Source of the DNA: Candidatus Poribacteria bacterium
GTDB lineage: Bacteria; Poribacteria; WGA-4E; WGA-3G
NCBI GenBank assembly: GCA_009841255.1
Contig: VXMD01000037.1
Span: forward strand, 1 to 39,492
Length of the DNA: 39,492 bases
Direction of reading: 5' to 3'
Within the stretch, counting starts at the first letter, position 1; each line of letters begins with the position of its first letter. Below the pieces are notes generated by a model, which did no database searches, was not told where the DNA came from, and saw only the letters and a program-made list of their open reading frames with translations. A program made the translations under genes and the position numbers. This document shows, piece after piece, positions 1 through 5,921 of this stretch.

Positions 1-617
1 TCAAGTTATTTATGTGTCATGTGGATAAAGCTGCGTTGGCAGGCACTGCGGCGTTAGAATACATTGAGTGGGGTGAGAAACAAGGGTATCATCAGAGACC
101 GAGTTGCCGGGGACGGGCAAGATGGTGGGATTTGGGGCAATGGAACTATCCTGATATGCTATGGTCAGATGCCTACAATGTCCGATTTGGATGCTTTGAA
201 AATGCGGGCGATTATTTTGCTGACAAAAGGTTTTTCGTTATAGAATTCAATGAGAAAAATTCGGCAACCTATGCTTATTTAAACAGTACTATCATTCCGC
301 TATTGATTGAAACAGAAGGCATCGCGAATTTAGGTGAAGGCGTTATTTATACAAATGTCTATTGGTTAAAGACGCTCCCCATATTGGAAGAAAGCCACAT
401 CGCAAAAGAGATTCACCAATGCTATGAAAACATAAAAACGCGTGAAATTCTTCCTATCTTTGATGAGATCCACCAACCCGACCGTCTTGCACTTGACGCA
501 ATCATCTTTGATACCCTTAGACTTACCCAAGGCGAGCGAGATGGTGTGTATGCAGCGGTTGTTAATTTAGTGGAATCTCGGTTACGGAAGGCGCGGAGTT
601 TGAAGGGGAAAGGATAG
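1..617 (+). CDS. C-terminal part of a DNA N6-adenine methylase-like (R-M) protein, cut by window edge
   Basis: The reading frame is open to the left edge without a stop, so this is the 3' end of a longer gene; the ATG at 12 is internal. The visible ~204 residues are not the catalytic methyltransferase core. They resemble the C-terminal target-recognition/tail region of Eco57I/TaqI-like DNA methylases and type IIG enzymes: an RARWWDLG segment, a region ending PILEESHIAKEIHQ, then the tail DAIIFDTLRLTQGERDGVY. The family assignment is from recall of that tail pattern. No DPPY-type motif is visible because the N-terminal part lies outside the window. It probably belonged to a restriction-modification or BREX-like locus to the left. 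The frame looks intact to its TAG stop. Confidence 0.6.
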   Translation, partial: KLFMCHVDKAALAGTAALEYIEWGEKQGYHQRPSCRGRARWWDLGQWNYPDMLWSDAYNVRFGCFENAGDYFADKRFFVIEFNEKNSATYAYLNSTIIPLLIETEGIANLGEGVIYTNVYWLKTLPILEESHIAKEIHQCYENIKTREILPIFDEIHQPDRLALDAIIFDTLRLTQGERDGVYAAVVNLVESRLRKARSLKGKG

Positions 618-620
618 GTT

Positions 621-664
621 GTCTGAATCGCGGATTAGGCGGATTACACAGATTTCGCGGATTA
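621..664. repeat. dispersed repeat, 'CTGAATCGCGGATTA' type, left copy
   Basis: Starts GTCTGAATCGCGGATTA and continues with further GGATTA/GCGGATTA units. The reverse complement of the same motif set ends with GTGATTCAGAC at 2549-2593, so two inverted copies bracket the coiled-coil gene and the broken small gene. The stretch 665-740 that follows holds two CCAGCGGAGCGG / CCAACGGAGCGG hairpin motifs like those at 2225-2296. No gene is visible between 618 and 876. Confidence 0.6.
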
Positions 665-769: not shown

Positions 770-876
770 TTAAAAAATAGGCACGTTTAATTGGACATCA
801 CCGCTTACTGTACCGTTGTTTGATCTGATTTGAACTAGCATGAGAGAATCTTATAGTCTATATTATGGAGGCTTTT

Positions 877-2214
877 GTGGCACAAATAAATCTGGTTTTT
901 ACTTGGGAATTGGAATCGTTTAGTGAAATTGCAAAACAGCCCAATTTACTCAGATTACGCAATGAATTTAAAATGAGAGGGCATTTGCTTTCTCAGAGTT
1001 TATTGATTTGGGAAAAAGTCGGAGTAGCCGGGAGTTGGTTATTGGCAGACTTTAGAAATAAGAAAATTTATCATATTGACAAAAGAAACGACCCGGAAAT
1101 GGAAGTATCGGAAGCATCCTGGGATCCGAAAAATCTGATATCTCGTTTTGCACAAGAGGTTCGTGGAACCCATGAGGGATTTATTGACTGGCTAAAACTG
1201 TTCAATCTGGCCAAGTCTGACCTAGAACAATTGAAGCGCACCGATTTATTGGAAAGAAGACTCGCCCTTGAAATTACACATGATGATTTGTTAGCAGCTT
1301 ACGAACTATTACGAGAGATTCTCACATCTCCGCGCGGATGGCTTGTTGGTTTATCAAAAGACAATATTCAAGAAATCAGGGAATGCTTAGGGAAATGGTA
1401 TGAAATGGAAGAGACAATTCACGGTATTAGTTTATCCACCTCTAAAGAGAGACATACGGAAATTTCACAGCAAATTTTTCAATTCTGTGATGAGGTTAAG
1501 CAACGACTAGGGCAAGTTGTAACTCATTTAAAATCAAAGAAATTAGAACAACTGGAAACCCAAGTGAATGCAACTGTTGATGAGGTTGTGGAAGATCTCA
1601 AAACGGAGAAGGAGCTCTTACAAAAGCAACGTGAAGAGGCAGAACAGAATGAATCTACAAGACAAAAAGAGTTTGCTGAACTTAAAGAAAAGGTAAATGA
1701 AGAACTCCTACAAAAAAAGGTTTCCCAACATAAAGTGATTTTTGCTGAGCAAACCCAAAGACATCAAAGGGCAGCGTGGGGATGGCTTTTTATGTCAAGT
1801 TTATTGGTTATTGGACTTGTAGTCGGAATCATTTCTTTTGGGTTGCTTGATATTTTAAAACTTGAAGGGAGCGCGTGGACAGTAGTGTTGCAAAATATTT
1901 TTAAAAAAGGATCTGTGCTTACCTTGTTTTACTTTGCCCTTAATCGTTCACTTAGGAATTACACTGCTCAGAAACATTTAGAAATTGTGAATCGACATCG
2001 CCAAAATGCCCTTGAAACCTTTGATGAGTTTAGAGATGCCTCAAAAGATAATCCGGAAACACATGACGCTGTGTTGTTAGCGGCAACGAACGCTATTTTT
2101 GATGCAAATCAGAGTGGTTACTTATCAACGAAAACGAAAGGCACCGAAAGCGTGAATCCAATTCAACAAGTATTTGGGGCAACGCGCAGCTCATCAACAA
2201 GGTCTGAAGATTAA
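877..2214 (+). CDS. coiled-coil protein with C-terminal membrane segments, function unknown
   Basis: About 445 residues. The N-terminal ~210 residues look globular and helical. Residues ~215-290 are a charged coiled coil rich in E, K and Q. Residues ~302-325 form a clear transmembrane segment (AAWGWLFMSSLLVIGLVVG), followed by a second hydrophobic stretch near 344-356 and a ~75-residue soluble tail. I do not recognise a family. Start choice: an ATG at 865 is in frame, but GGAGG (867-871) is a good Shine-Dalgarno sequence 5 bases before a GTG at 877. The ATG overlaps that site, so GTG is the likelier start. It sits alone behind its own promoter, between a methylase gene and gene remnants, and is bracketed by inverted repeats. 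This accessory setting is compatible with a defence or stress role, but nothing in the protein proves one. Confidence 0.75.
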   Translation: MAQINLVFTWELESFSEIAKQPNLLRLRNEFKMRGHLLSQSLLIWEKVGVAGSWLLADFRNKKIYHIDKRNDPEMEVSEASWDPKNLISRFAQEVRGTHEGFIDWLKLFNLAKSDLEQLKRTDLLERRLALEITHDDLLAAYELLREILTSPRGWLVGLSKDNIQEIRECLGKWYEMEETIHGISLSTSKERHTEISQQIFQFCDEVKQRLGQVVTHLKSKKLEQLETQVNATVDEVVEDLKTEKELLQKQREEAEQNESTRQKEFAELKEKVNEELLQKKVSQHKVIFAEQTQRHQRAAWGWLFMSSLLVIGLVVGIISFGLLDILKLEGSAWTVVLQNIFKKGSVLTLFYFALNRSLRNYTAQKHLEIVNRHRQNALETFDEFRDASKDNPETHDAVLLAATNAIFDANQSGYLSTKTKGTESVNPIQQVFGATRSSSTRSED

Positions 2215-2224
2215 TTGGGTTTGT

Positions 2225-2296
2225 CACATACCGCTTCGCTGGAGCGGGGGTTGGGGATCCATCGTTTTCTACAGACATATCGCTCCGCTGGAGCGA
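2225..2296. repeat. two copies of the CGCTCCGCTGGAGCG hairpin repeat
   Basis: Copy one (2225-2250) contains CCGCTTCGCTGGAGCGG. Copy two (2266-2296) reads TTCTACAGACATATCGCTCC followed by GCTGGAGCGAA. The core GCTCC-GCT-GGAGC forms a short stem-loop. A related copy in the opposite orientation (GCCCCAGCGGGGCGAAATG then TCTGTAGAAA) lies at 34219-34252, and degenerate cores lie at 667-731. This is a dispersed REP-like family. Confidence 0.7.
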
Positions 2297-2314
2297 AAGC
2301 GTGAAAAACCGATA

Positions 2315-2535
2315 ATGATTCAGAACAATCAAGAGTTTGAAGCAACGCTCACGCGCATCAGGCACTTTCAAAAACAGGTTGAAAACTCCAAAAGATTGAA
2401 ACCAATCCGTAAAATTATCGACTCTCCGCGGGTGGATTTCTTGCTGAAATTGATCGGATGAATCTGGATATGAGAGAATATCTCTCAATTCATCCGAGCG
2501 AATTGAGAGAAGAAATTGCTGAAAGCAGTACGTAA
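2315..2535 (+). pseudogene. small conserved-looking gene broken by a frameshift and an in-frame stop
   Basis: An ATG at 2315 opens MIQNNQEFEATLTRIRHFQK and runs in one frame to a stop at 2461. The protein continues sensibly only in another frame: from about 2389 that frame reads KIETNP, a TAA at 2410-2412, then NYRLSAGGFLAEIDRMNLDM and REYLSIHPSELREEIAESST to a stop at 2533-2535. The joined product (~73 residues) resembles a family of short proteins starting MIQNEQE and ending in an AEIDRM...REYLSLHPSE segment, which I recall as widespread and uncharacterised. One base lost near 2386-2392 plus a change to TAA explains the sequence, so the gene is doubly damaged. The region immediately upstream is repeat DNA, so no partner gene is evident. 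Confidence 0.65.
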
Positions 2536-2548
2536 AAATAAGCAGGAT

Positions 2549-2593
2549 CAATCCGCGTCATCCGTTTAATCCGTGAAAATCCGTGATTCAGAC
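2549..2593. repeat. dispersed repeat, right (inverted) copy of the 621-664 element
   Basis: Runs of ATCCGCG, ATCCGTTTAATCCGTG and AATCCGTGATTCAGAC are the reverse complement of the motif order at 621-664. Together the two copies form a ~1.97-kb inverted bracket. From 2594 to about 2815 I see only short open frames (for example 36 codons from 2630) that I cannot assign. Confidence 0.55.
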
Positions 2594-2818
2594 GATTGCA
2601 AAACTTCATGCTCAAAAGAAGTTGCCATAATGGAAAACGCCAATACGAATGGTAACCTGAGAGCAAAGGCTGCCAAAATGTGGTGGATGATATCTGAACA
2701 GTTATTGGCCAGAGGCAAGCTCAGGCGGACCCTCATCTGAGAGATCCCAAAATAGACGATTAGTTCAATGGGCGTTCCAACAAAGTAACTTCCTGCTGAT
2801 GCTGAAACAAATCAATGG

Positions 2819-2937
2819 TGGTTTTGATAACGCCATAAAGGACTATATCCGATTTGGAAAAAGAGATTGATAAACGTGTGTATGCCTTGTATAATTTAAC
2901 ACAAGAACAGATTGCTACTGTAGAAGAGGAAAAATGA
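2819..2937 (+). pseudogene. gene remnants: TPR fragment joined to the last codons of a methylase-like gene
   Basis: Bases 2821-2847 (GTTTTGATAACGCCATAAAG and following) nearly match the TPR-coding stretch at ~3236-3263 of the next gene, so this is a broken piece of a TPR unit. From 2839, in a different frame, the sequence encodes RTISDLEKEIDKRVYALYNL then TQEQIATVEEEK and a TGA at 2935-2937. That is the characteristic tail of Eco57I/BREX-PglX-like DNA methylases (pattern EID..VY.LY.LT..EI..VE, from recall). A TAA at 2836-2838 closes the frame upstream, so only the tail survives. The TGA overlaps the ATG of the TPR gene. Confidence 0.6.
2867..2895 (+). promoter_or_regulatory. sigma70-type promoter for the TPR-doc pair, inside the methylase remnant
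   Basis: TTGATA at 2867-2872 and TATAAT at 2890-2895 are exactly 17 bases apart. The expected transcript start (~2902) is about 32 bases before the ATG at 2934. AGAGGAAAA just before that ATG gives a ribosome binding site. The whole promoter lies within the old methylase tail codons. Confidence 0.6.
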
Positions 2938-4259
2938 TGCTACAATCGAATCTAAATCACCTTGCCTCCAATGCTGCTTCAATCCCGCTTAATAGCTATA
3001 TAAGCCCGCGTAATCGGAATGATGTTGCGGTGAATGACCCTAAATATATAAGCATGTTCAATAAAGATAATATTGGAGTGAATGAGGCTAGTATTTATAA
3101 CTACCGTGGTATTGATTGCTGCGAAAAGGGCAAATTTGACGAAGGGATTGAACATTTTAACACGGTGATTGCACTGGTTCCGAAATTTGCTGGTGCCTAT
3201 TACAATAGAGGCACTGCTTACGCCCAGAAAGGCGATTTTGATAACGCCATAACAGACTATACGAAAGCAATAGACCTCAAATCTGATTATGTCGCTGCTT
3301 ATATCAATCGGGGAAATGCTTACGACAAGAAAGGCGATTTTGATAAGGCTATTGAAGACCATACCAAAGCGATACACCTCAACCCCGATGATGCCAATGT
3401 TTATTACAATAGGGGAATTGCTTACGCCGACAAAGGCGATTTTGATGCTGCTATAGGTGACTTTACTAAGGTGATACACCTCAACCCCAATGATACCTAT
3501 GCCTATTGCAATAGAGGCACTGTTTACAGTAGGAACGACGAATTTGACCTTGCTCTTGAAGACTTTAACACGGCAATAGGTCTAGATCCAAAGTTTGCTG
3601 CTGCATACTTCCAGCGTGGAATCGCTCATGACAGTAAAGGTGAGAGTGAGAAAGCCCTTGAAGACTATAACACGGCTATAAAACTCGAACCCAATTTCGC
3701 CCCTAGTTACAATCTTCGCGGTTTATATTATTCTGCGAAAGGTGAGTACAAGCAAGCGATTAAGGACTTCAGTAGAACTATAGAATTGAAAGAAGACCTT
3801 AGTGGGATCGGTGCCTTGGGTTTTGAAATTGTTGTCTTTGCCTACATGGCCTATTGTGTCCGTGGGATGATTTACCATAGCAAAGGTGAAATTGACCTAG
3901 CTATTACTGATTTTACCAAGGCAATAGAACTATATCCAAAGTTTGCGGAGGTCTACGTCAGGCGCGGGATAGAACTAAATCCAAAATTGGAGGAGGTTTA
4001 TGTCAGTCGTGGGATGGCTTATACGAAAAAAGGCGAGTTTGAACGTGCTATCGTGGACTATGCCGAAGCCATAGCACTCAAACCCGATGATGCCGATGCC
4101 TATTACAGACGTAGCAAGGTTTGGTTGCATCTCGGACAACCCGAAAAAGCGAAAGCAGATATGCAAACTGCCAGCAAAATAGGGATAAACAGCAGTACTG
4201 CCTTAGACGAAACATTACAAAACTACGATCGCGCGTGGAAAGCCCTCGGTAACCTATGA
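2934..4259 (+). CDS. tetratricopeptide repeat (TPR) protein
   Basis: 441 residues. A ~50-residue non-repetitive N-terminus is followed by about ten TPR units from residue ~53 to ~430, each of the form YYNRGxAYxxKGDFDxAIxDxTKAIxLxP. TPR arrays are protein-protein interaction scaffolds; no catalytic domain is present. No signal peptide or membrane segment is visible. Near residues 345-360 one unit is shortened (VRRGIELNPKLEEVYVSRGM), which looks like an internal deletion between neighbouring repeats. The stop overlaps the next gene's start by four bases (ATGA), so the Doc-family protein downstream is translationally coupled. In a standard doc operon this position is held by a small antitoxin, so this protein or a diverged function of it may take that place; that is inference only. 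Confidence 0.85.
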   Translation: MMLQSNLNHLASNAASIPLNSYISPRNRNDVAVNDPKYISMFNKDNIGVNEASIYNYRGIDCCEKGKFDEGIEHFNTVIALVPKFAGAYYNRGTAYAQKGDFDNAITDYTKAIDLKSDYVAAYINRGNAYDKKGDFDKAIEDHTKAIHLNPDDANVYYNRGIAYADKGDFDAAIGDFTKVIHLNPNDTYAYCNRGTVYSRNDEFDLALEDFNTAIGLDPKFAAAYFQRGIAHDSKGESEKALEDYNTAIKLEPNFAPSYNLRGLYYSAKGEYKQAIKDFSRTIELKEDLSGIGALGFEIVVFAYMAYCVRGMIYHSKGEIDLAITDFTKAIELYPKFAEVYVRRGIELNPKLEEVYVSRGMAYTKKGEFERAIVDYAEAIALKPDDADAYYRRSKVWLHLGQPEKAKADMQTASKIGINSSTALDETLQNYDRAWKALGNL

Positions 4260-4627
4260 GATATTTGACAACCGCGGAGATCCTGGAAGTTGTCGAGGGA
4301 CATGTTGGGACCTACCACTTGCTGGATGAAAGTCGGTTACACTACTTGGTTGAAGCGGTTAAGGGGAAATTTGGTGATACAGAACTCTATCCAACTTTAT
4401 TCCAGAAAGCCGCTGTATATGCCCACCATATCGTTACCGGACATATATTTCTCGACGGAAACAAGCGTGTCGGCATGCATTGTGCAATCTTGTTTTTGGA
4501 ATTTAACGGTTGCGCCCTGCGTCTTGACATTGAGGATTCAATCATTGAGCTCGGTTTCAAAATTGCCGATGGCACCATCACGGATATTGAGGTCATCGCG
4601 GCCCACATAGAATCATGGGTTTTGTAA
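4256..4627 (+). CDS. doc: Doc/Fic-family (death-on-curing) toxin-like protein
   Basis: 123 residues, the usual length of Doc toxins. The Fic-fold catalytic loop is intact: HIFLDGNKRVG at residues ~62-72 matches the HxFx(D/N)(G/A)NKR consensus that carries the catalytic histidine and phosphate-binding residues. Doc of phage P1 phosphorylates elongation factor Tu; other Fic proteins AMPylate targets. By family, this protein is likely to modify a translation component. No Phd or AbrB-like antitoxin ORF lies next to it; upstream is a TPR gene overlapping by ATGA, and downstream is a promoter for an unrelated gene. I could not find a clean Fic inhibitory motif (S/T-xxx-E-G/N) in this protein or the TPR protein. 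The nearest is TALDET at the TPR C-terminus, which does not fit fully. Confidence 0.85.
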   Translation: MRYLTTAEILEVVEGHVGTYHLLDESRLHYLVEAVKGKFGDTELYPTLFQKAAVYAHHIVTGHIFLDGNKRVGMHCAILFLEFNGCALRLDIEDSIIELGFKIADGTITDIEVIAAHIESWVL

Positions 4628-4721
4628 CAAACAGATATTGATGCTGTCGTAATACCGAGAACCAGAGCCTATGTCATTAACCCTCCTCGACTCACTACCC
4701 TGACAGCCCCCAAAAAGTGAC

Positions 4722-4750
4722 TTGACAAAACCTGTCTAAAATGATAGACT
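4722..4750 (+). promoter_or_regulatory. sigma70-type promoter for the phosphomannose isomerase-like gene
   Basis: TTGACA at 4722-4727, 17-base spacer, TAGACT at 4745-4750. The start of transcription would be near 4757, about 58 bases before the ATG at 4815. Confidence 0.55.
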
Positions 4751-4814
4751 GACTTTAAACAAGGGAACCTGAAATCTATGCCCTTAGTTCTTAAAGAAAA
4801 AGAAAGGAAGCAAT

Positions 4815-5921
4815 ATGGCATCACAAAATGAACTGCGGTCAATGTTAGACGCACCCGTTGGCTTAGCCCCAAATACCTACCTACATTTTTATAACGGTGG
4901 AAAGCTCCGTGCCGAGTTTATGGGTGAACCCGATCCGAAAGATGATTATTACTCCGAAGAATGGATCTTTTCCACAAACCGGGCAATCACACCCGGCAGA
5001 GAGAATCCACCCGACAAAGGACTCAGTCGCATCCAACTCCCCGGTGGCGAGATCGTCCTGCTGAAAGCACTGCTGGACGCATTTCCGGAAGAGACACTCG
5101 GTAGCGCGCACGTCGACAAATACGGCACTGAATTGGGTGTACTTCTCAAGATTTTTGATGTCGGTGAAGGGGCACATATCCCCATCCATTGGCATCCAAA
5201 CCCCGACTTCTCCCAAAAACACCTCAATTCTCCCTTCGGTAAGAACGAAGCGTGGATCCTCATCGGCACCCGTCCGGGCGCGAAGGCGTGGATAGGTTGG
5301 AAAGAGGCGATAGACAAAGCAGAATTCCGCCGCCTGATGGAAGCGCAAGACGTGCCAACGCTACGGAGTCTGATGCACGTTGTAGAACCGAAAGTTGGCG
5401 AAGTCTATTTTTTACGGACACCGATTGTCCATTCACTCGGCACAGGACTCTGCGTTCTCGAACCACAAGAGCCGACCGACTGGAACATCCTCGCGGAATG
5501 GGAAGGTTTTCCGTTTGAAAGGGATGATGGGCACCTCGGACTCGGATGGGATCTCGCCGTAGATGCCGCTGAGTTTGATAAATTGGAACTCGACTATCTC
5601 AACAACTACATCCGCCGCACACCGGAACCCGTCCGAGCGGAAGGCGATAACCGAGAGGATCGGATCGTGCCGGAGGAAGCCTCGAAATTCTTTGGATGCT
5701 CGCGTCTAACAGTGAATTCGACGCTCAGTATGCCAGCAGACAAAGGGTTTTACGCGCTCGTGACTTTGGGCGGCGAAGGCGTGCTGCGTGGCGATTTTGA
5801 GGATGTCCCGCTCAAACGCGGCAAATCTGTCTTTATTCCACGATGCTTGTCGAGTTATGTCATTGTTAGCATAGGTGATACACCGATGGAGATCATCTGT
5901 TGTTACCCGCCAAGCCTTTAA
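4815..5921 (+). CDS. class I phosphomannose isomerase-like cupin protein
   Basis: 368 residues. The class I mannose-6-phosphate isomerase (ManA) layout is visible: a first cupin with metal-binding residues HIPIHWHPN (121-129) and GKNEAW (142-147, Glu145), a 'TPIVHSLGTG' histidine region near 205, and a C-terminal cupin half. ManA interconverts mannose-6-phosphate and fructose-6-phosphate in the cytoplasm. The metal-binding segment differs slightly from the canonical QxHP form (here HWHP), so the exact sugar substrate is uncertain. AGGAAG before the ATG is the ribosome binding site. It is transcribed alone from its own promoter and followed by a repeat. Confidence 0.75.
   Translation: MASQNELRSMLDAPVGLAPNTYLHFYNGGKLRAEFMGEPDPKDDYYSEEWIFSTNRAITPGRENPPDKGLSRIQLPGGEIVLLKALLDAFPEETLGSAHVDKYGTELGVLLKIFDVGEGAHIPIHWHPNPDFSQKHLNSPFGKNEAWILIGTRPGAKAWIGWKEAIDKAEFRRLMEAQDVPTLRSLMHVVEPKVGEVYFLRTPIVHSLGTGLCVLEPQEPTDWNILAEWEGFPFERDDGHLGLGWDLAVDAAEFDKLELDYLNNYIRRTPEPVRAEGDNREDRIVPEEASKFFGCSRLTVNSTLSMPADKGFYALVTLGGEGVLRGDFEDVPLKRGKSVFIPRCLSSYVIVSIGDTPMEIICCYPPSL

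Follow-up and report, generated by a model that had tools for sequence, protein, structure and literature searches.

Why does the end of a methylase gene stand directly before an operon of a TPR gene and a doc toxin-like gene, and does it serve that operon? The question is raised by contig C37 (the window, 39,492 nucleotides), one of 87 contigs of a 5.73-Mb genome from a sponge-associated Candidatus Poribacteria bacterium. Along the window, the end of a first methylase gene (methylase A) is followed by an open reading frame, ~700 bp of decayed sequence, the TPR gene and doc (Table 1). The reading we favor, and hold to be probable with moderate confidence, is that the piece directly before the TPR gene (tail B) is all that remains of a Type IIG methylase gene, namely its end, that this tail has long been the leader of the TPR gene and most likely provides its promoter, leader and ribosome site, and that doc was gained by a crossover within the TPR repeats.

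Table 1. Features of the window around the TPR-doc operon (positions are those of the window).
Feature	Positions	Strand	Remarks
Methylase A, C-terminal part	3..617	+	Open frame running in from the contig edge; ends ..RSLKGKG
GCGGAT-rich dispersed repeat	about 620..660; 2550..2609		
ORF, 449-aa protein	865..2214		Hydrophobic stretch near residues 305-325
Small-gene remnant	2311..2540		
TIR-TPR gene remnant	2632..2852	+	End of TIR domain at 2632-2733, first TPR at 2730-2852; stops and a frame change
TPR fragment within the TIR-TPR remnant	2820..2846	+	In frame with the 2730-2852 remnant
Tail B	2848..2937	+	Last ~28-29 codons and stop, left from the 3' end of a Type IIG methylase gene
Putative -35, TTGATA	2867..2872	+	At -67 from the TPR start codon
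Putative -10, TATAAT	2890..2895	+	Spacer of 17; predicted start near 2902
Putative ribosome site, GAAGAGGAAAA	2923..2933	+	Purine-rich; codons EEEK of the tail
TPR gene, 441 aa	2934..4259	+	Chimera; Pfam TPR; front ~2934-3400, back from ~4026
doc (Fic/DOC family), toxin-like	4256..4627	+	Start overlaps the TPR stop by 4 nt

Read in the frame of its TGA, tail B encodes the peptide SDLEKEIDKRVYALYNLTQEQIATVEEEK followed by the stop (2848-2934), which aligns with the C-termini of ~1200-aa methylases from many Poribacteria genomes. Compared with the intact 1237-aa gene of the congener G005, positions 2851-2929 are 91% identical at the DNA level (79 nt, E 2e-25, blastn), a match that rules out chance and confirms, in a genome with the intact gene, the methylase origin put forward in the initial annotation. 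The ~32 surviving codons counted there correspond to the open frame, of which the last ~29 are recognizable as methylase. The intact relatives are of Type IIG: one of them (L136) matches PF07669 (Eco57I, E 8e-36) and PF12950 (TaqI_C, E 3e-11) in Pfam, the class model REase_MTase_IIG of PADLOC is matched with E 5e-161, and the Eco57I N6-methylase core and C-terminal specificity domain typical of the class are found within ~1200 aa; the window holds the tail only. A DNA pattern search for the tail gave 16 matches, 15 of them in Candidatus Poribacteria MAGs and one in a Gammaproteobacteria MAG. The genome of the window itself carries two copies of tail B, in the window and on contig C29, both orphan, and a search of this genome for an intact methylase with tail B found none.

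Before the tail lie the remains of another gene. When the three frames of this stretch were compared with the ORFs of relatives (blastp), the TIR part was recovered with E 1e-6 (L025/L167) and the TPR part with E 9e-8 (L052); against L052, the remnant is also 74% identical over 169 nt (blastn). TIR-TPR genes are a common layout in these islands. A TPR fragment preceding the tail had been described as nearly identical to part of the next gene, and it does match 3234-3260 at 24 of 27 positions, but TPR repeats in C29 and G048 match it slightly better (25 of 26). Thus, based on these alignments, the fragment is best read as the last visible part of the decayed TIR-TPR gene. Its derivation as a duplicate of the segment in the next gene was rejected, given the better matches elsewhere and the TIR-TPR remnant around it.

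Farther upstream, methylase A lacks its 5' part, which lies on another contig (C13 or C26). Near-identical copies of methylase A are found at two contig ends (L197, on C26, and L198, on C13) and at two contig starts (C37 and C29, the latter at L007 1-614). Since two contigs end and two begin inside this gene, the genome contains two or more methylase A loci, each followed by different cargo, and the window lies behind one of them; for the same reason, it is unlikely that C29 and the window are two haplotypes of one locus. The same C-terminus is also present in G029, on a 771-aa methylase frame directly 5' of its TPR gene. The 449-aa protein encoded downstream of methylase A had no Pfam match above cut-off and only a weak match in PADLOC (LeoBC, E 4e-4), and no Rfam match to an RNA element was obtained within 2000-5000. 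The small-gene remnant (MIQNNQEFEATLTRIRHFQKQVE...) has 73% DNA identity to a copy in G045 (L092), which sits just downstream of another orphan methylase tail. The GCGGAT-rich repeat (TCTGAATCGCGGATTA...) is found at many loci and often starts exactly at the stop codon of a methylase gene.

The joint between tail and TPR gene recurs at four loci besides this one, spread over three genera (g1 to g3), namely on C29 and in G027, G039 and G038. On C29, the TPR protein has 728 aa and ends in a UPF0175 domain (PF03683), and its gene is followed by a DUF3368 (PIN-like) gene. In G027 and G039, a tail stands before a TPR gene whose C-terminal end is similar; genes of other kinds lie on both sides, and the 8.5 kb examined contained no methylase. 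In G038, an intact methylase is followed by a TIR-TPR gene, a 76-aa tail, a TPR-UPF0175 gene and a PIN-like gene; this tail is nearly identical to the end of the methylase, which lies 1.3 kb upstream. An intact methylase upstream, as a lost gene at this site would lead one to look for in homologous loci, is seen in G038, but not in the surroundings of G027 and G039. After C29, the TPR fronts closest to the window are those of G029 and G011 (81% identity), where homology to the window begins at the ribosome site and the tail is absent. Because the more distant fronts of G027 (69%) and G039 (44%) carry the tail, the simplest reading is that of an ancestral tail, later exchanged for another sequence in G029 and G011. 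By these comparisons, the tail-TPR joint is old, an inherited travelling unit that predates the operon.

The operon itself is composite. At the front, with the tail (2851 to about 3400-3500), it shares 80% identity with C29, and from 2919 onward 85% with G029 (blastn), the counterparts in both being TPR-UPF0175 genes. Its back, from ~4026 through doc, is 83% identical to G008 (to 4640) and 86% to G017 (to 4542; blastn), where short TPR genes overlap doc by 4 nt. The amino-acid identity profile switches sides within the TPR array. As judged from these alignments, the operon is a chimera of a TPR-UPF0175 front and a TPR-Doc back, joined inside the TPR repeats at about 3.4-4.03 kb. The initial annotation had proposed that recombination rewired a toxin operon onto the end of a lost restriction-modification gene. 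A dead tail does precede the operon and recombination did bring doc; however, the event was assigned to the wrong place and time, since the tail was already attached and the crossover that brought doc falls inside the TPR array. As the joint recurs on C29 and in G027, G039 and G038, the one at 2848 did not arise from the loss of a methylase before this operon.

The doc product has a Fic/DOC domain (PF02661, E 1e-10; TIGR01550, DOC_P1, 56 bits for a cut-off of 38.65) and, with HIFLDGNKR in its translation, the HxFxxGNKR motif of Doc proteins. Among 20 Doc loci of the relatives, an overlapping upstream ORF was found in 14, and every one of these partners is a TPR protein ending in LDExLxxYxRAWKxLGN or close to it. 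A Phd/YefM-type antitoxin gene was not found upstream of doc, where Pfam identified the TPR gene only. The TPR protein before doc is, on this sequence pattern, a possible TPR-type antitoxin. Poribacterial doc genes (window 4256-4627; L239-L256) are preceded, with a 4-nt overlap, by a TPR gene ending in LDETLxNYxRAWKxLGN that takes the place of Phd.

Could the tail drive this operon? The hexamers TTGATA-17-TATAAT match the sigma-70 consensus at 11 of 12 positions, with a spacer within the 16-18 nt range. A site this good was present in only 3 of 400 dinucleotide shuffles of 2215-2933, and the plus strand of the 39-kb window has three. The TPR start codon (ATG, 2934-2936) overlaps the old methylase TGA (2935-2937); promoter match, ribosome site and overlap are all present at 2867-2937 as first described. 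The ribosome site is homologous to GAGGAGGAAAA, which stands 5' of the TPR gene in G029 and G011, where the remainder of the tail is missing. Of the five tail-TPR copies, four keep the 11 of 12 matches at -67 to -69 (-35 at -67 in G039 and G038 and at -69 in G027, with the -10 kept in all three), the exception being C29, where an in-frame 12-nt deletion in the tail has removed the -10. The orthologous TPR genes in G029 and G011, which lack the tail, carry a different pair of hexamers at -68, TTGACA-18-TATCAT or TTGACT-18-TATCCT. The TIR genes of the islands likewise have two kinds of upstream sequence, either a methylase tail with TTGATA-17-TATAAT at -66/-67 or a free promoter, TTGACA-18-TAT(T/C)AT with an extended -10, at -67/-68; several TIR genes, family f4 among them, have neither. 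Mainly because two unrelated upstream sequences place good hexamers equally far from the start codon, it is plausible that the methylase tail serves the TPR-doc operon as promoter and ribosome site. Two findings speak against this: the TPR gene of C29 is intact although its -10 is deleted, and the hexamers double as codons of a conserved protein motif (EIDKxVYxLYNLT), with the same bases at these positions in intact methylase genes of the same lineage. A translated leader peptide was set aside as a candidate, its frame having TTG/GTG starts only and lying mostly upstream of the predicted transcript start. The TTGACA-18-TAT(T/C)AT promoter with an extended -10 at -67/-68 recurs in L213, L219, L223, L226, L232 and L073 (~5712, minus strand), upstream of several TIR genes and of the G029 TPR gene.

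Under the favored reading, a sigma-70-type polymerase would bind TTGATA-17-TATAAT, the transcript would begin near 2902, and ribosomes would take GAAGAGGAAAA and initiate at the ATG at 2934, with translation of doc coupled through the ATGA overlap at 4256 and the TPR protein and Doc acting as antitoxin and toxin. Tail and TPR front travel as one inherited unit, and a crossover within the repeats of the TPR gene, at about 3.4-4.03 kb, swapped the original UPF0175-PIN back for a TPR-Doc back and so brought doc under the tail leader.

The behavior of methylase 3' ends across the phylum brings in a second reading. We searched the same 146 genomes with 26-aa queries for the tail and for two mid-gene segments. 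Orphan pieces (frames <130 aa, away from contig edges) accounted for ~28 of 128 tail matches versus 2 of ~300 mid-gene matches (Fisher P 5e-14; tail counts made by hand from the list of matches). For 5' methylase pieces, 5 of 35 were in short frames, and those of G001:C7 and G000:C26, directly before long methylase frames, look like frameshifts. We also compared 41 methylase 3' ends with one another. In pairs whose bodies share 20-40% identity, the excess of identical synonymous codons was 0.05 for the body, where synonymous sites are saturated, versus 0.40-0.48 for the last 26 codons, and the onset is abrupt. The excess in the tail is 0.51 with an adjacent gene and 0.42 without one; promoter constraint as the sole cause was rejected, as the conservation holds equally in both cases. 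It reaches 0.71 in same-genome pairs versus 0.43 in different-genome pairs, although same-genome bodies are also somewhat more alike (0.16 versus 0.05). Since the block is conserved with or without a neighbor, and more so within genomes, it behaves as a recombination or conversion joint among paralogs, and the last ~26 methylase codons resemble a joint of this kind in addition to a promoter.

The tail might then be mainly such a joint, its shared last ~26 codons being used in homologous recombination to swap recognition domains and downstream genes, with orphan tails as leftovers of exchange and the promoter match as a by-product of the codons. Besides the synonymous conservation, this is favored by methylases with other C-termini that stop right where an orphan tail starts (G009, G025, G014 and G047) and by the order in G038, with a tail copy between the TIR-TPR and TPR-UPF0175 genes. 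It leaves unexplained why the tail is kept before a TPR gene with no methylase nearby, as in G027 and G039, and why alternative promoters occupy the same -67/-68 position where the tail is absent. As a replacement for the favored reading we thus consider it rather unlikely, but the two are mutually compatible. It is possible, and proposed here tentatively, that the ~26 codons closing the Type IIG methylase genes of Poribacteria form a portable cassette of dual use, at once a C-terminus and a promoter, leader and ribosome site, which outlives the methylase and is recombined before TIR, TPR and toxin-antitoxin genes throughout the phylum.

The left borders of several orphan tails lie just upstream of the -35, a clustering compatible with selection to keep the promoter but partly a detection limit; the search is blind to relics shorter than about 24 codons, and the sharpness of the border is for this reason not proven. 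Tails persist next to sequences of different kinds, namely an IS-like end on C29, the stop of another methylase in G009, G025, G014 and G047, and the TIR-TPR remnant in the window. Given this variety and the invisibility of short relics, a single site-specific integration at the methylase 3' end is not claimed. The genome carries nine copies of the IS-like end (ATCTTGGTTTAG...GGCAGTACAA; L007 3959-4001, L199-L207). Three lie at most 60 nt from the start of a contig, and on C23 the IS-like end is located where a methylase frame breaks off.

It is improbable that the tail is merely non-functional debris, with the operon transcribed from elsewhere. The intact TPR gene of C29 would fit such a passive relic, and another site with 11 of 12 matches, TTGAAA-17-TATAAT at 741, or upstream read-through could supply transcription. 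Yet hexamers and spacing are kept in G039, G027, G038 and the window, the shuffles rarely produce such a site, and 700 bp of decay separate the operon from the last intact gene upstream. Finally, an accident confined to this genome, in which the methylase before the operon was deleted and the operon rewired to its end, would agree with the local decay of the upstream remnants and the missing intact methylase with tail B, but is very improbable, given that the joint recurs at four further loci spanning three genera.

Several known systems offer comparison. In recognition-domain exchange (DoMo) of Type I/III/IIG restriction-modification genes, segments recombine at short conserved flanks (PMC3077401, PMC3983042). 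As in DoMo, a conserved block flanks a variable C-terminal region; here, differing methylase C-termini abut the conserved 3' block across genomes, and recognition domains may have been swapped at it. In contrast to DoMo, the block forms the very 3' terminus of the methylase gene, is left behind or carried before unrelated downstream genes, and holds a promoter and ribosome-site match. The UPF0175 (COG2886) antitoxin and the PIN (VapC-like) toxin are described toxin-antitoxin composites (PMC6929052). The C29 locus resembles them in pairing UPF0175, the last domain of its TPR protein, with a PIN-like gene downstream. It differs in that a long TPR protein carries the antitoxin-like domain, which in the window gives way to a Doc-type back. 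Phd-Doc is a type II toxin-antitoxin module. The Doc homologue of the window shares with it the HxFxxGNKR motif and the translational overlap with the preceding gene, whereas the upstream partner, a putative antitoxin, is a TPR protein ending in LDETLxNYxRAWKxLGN rather than Phd. In promoter capture by fusion to the 3' end of a neighboring gene, a coding end gives the next gene its expression signals. Unlike plain promoter capture, the coding end has here outlasted its gene and is found at several loci with the same kind of gene behind it.

The locus thus offers a concrete and testable route by which defense and toxin-antitoxin genes could gain expression signals behind the 3' end of a restriction methylase and keep them after loss of the enzyme; it shows, too, toxin modules being exchanged through the TPR repeats with no change at the promoter end. 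It also suggests that conserved methylase 3' ends can mark recombination points in defense islands. In G038 (L186 2624-14363), four ORFs of 450-500 aa come after a 1683-aa methylase and have in common their N-terminus and a methylase-type C-terminal tail, an arrangement that resembles an array of recognition-domain cassettes.
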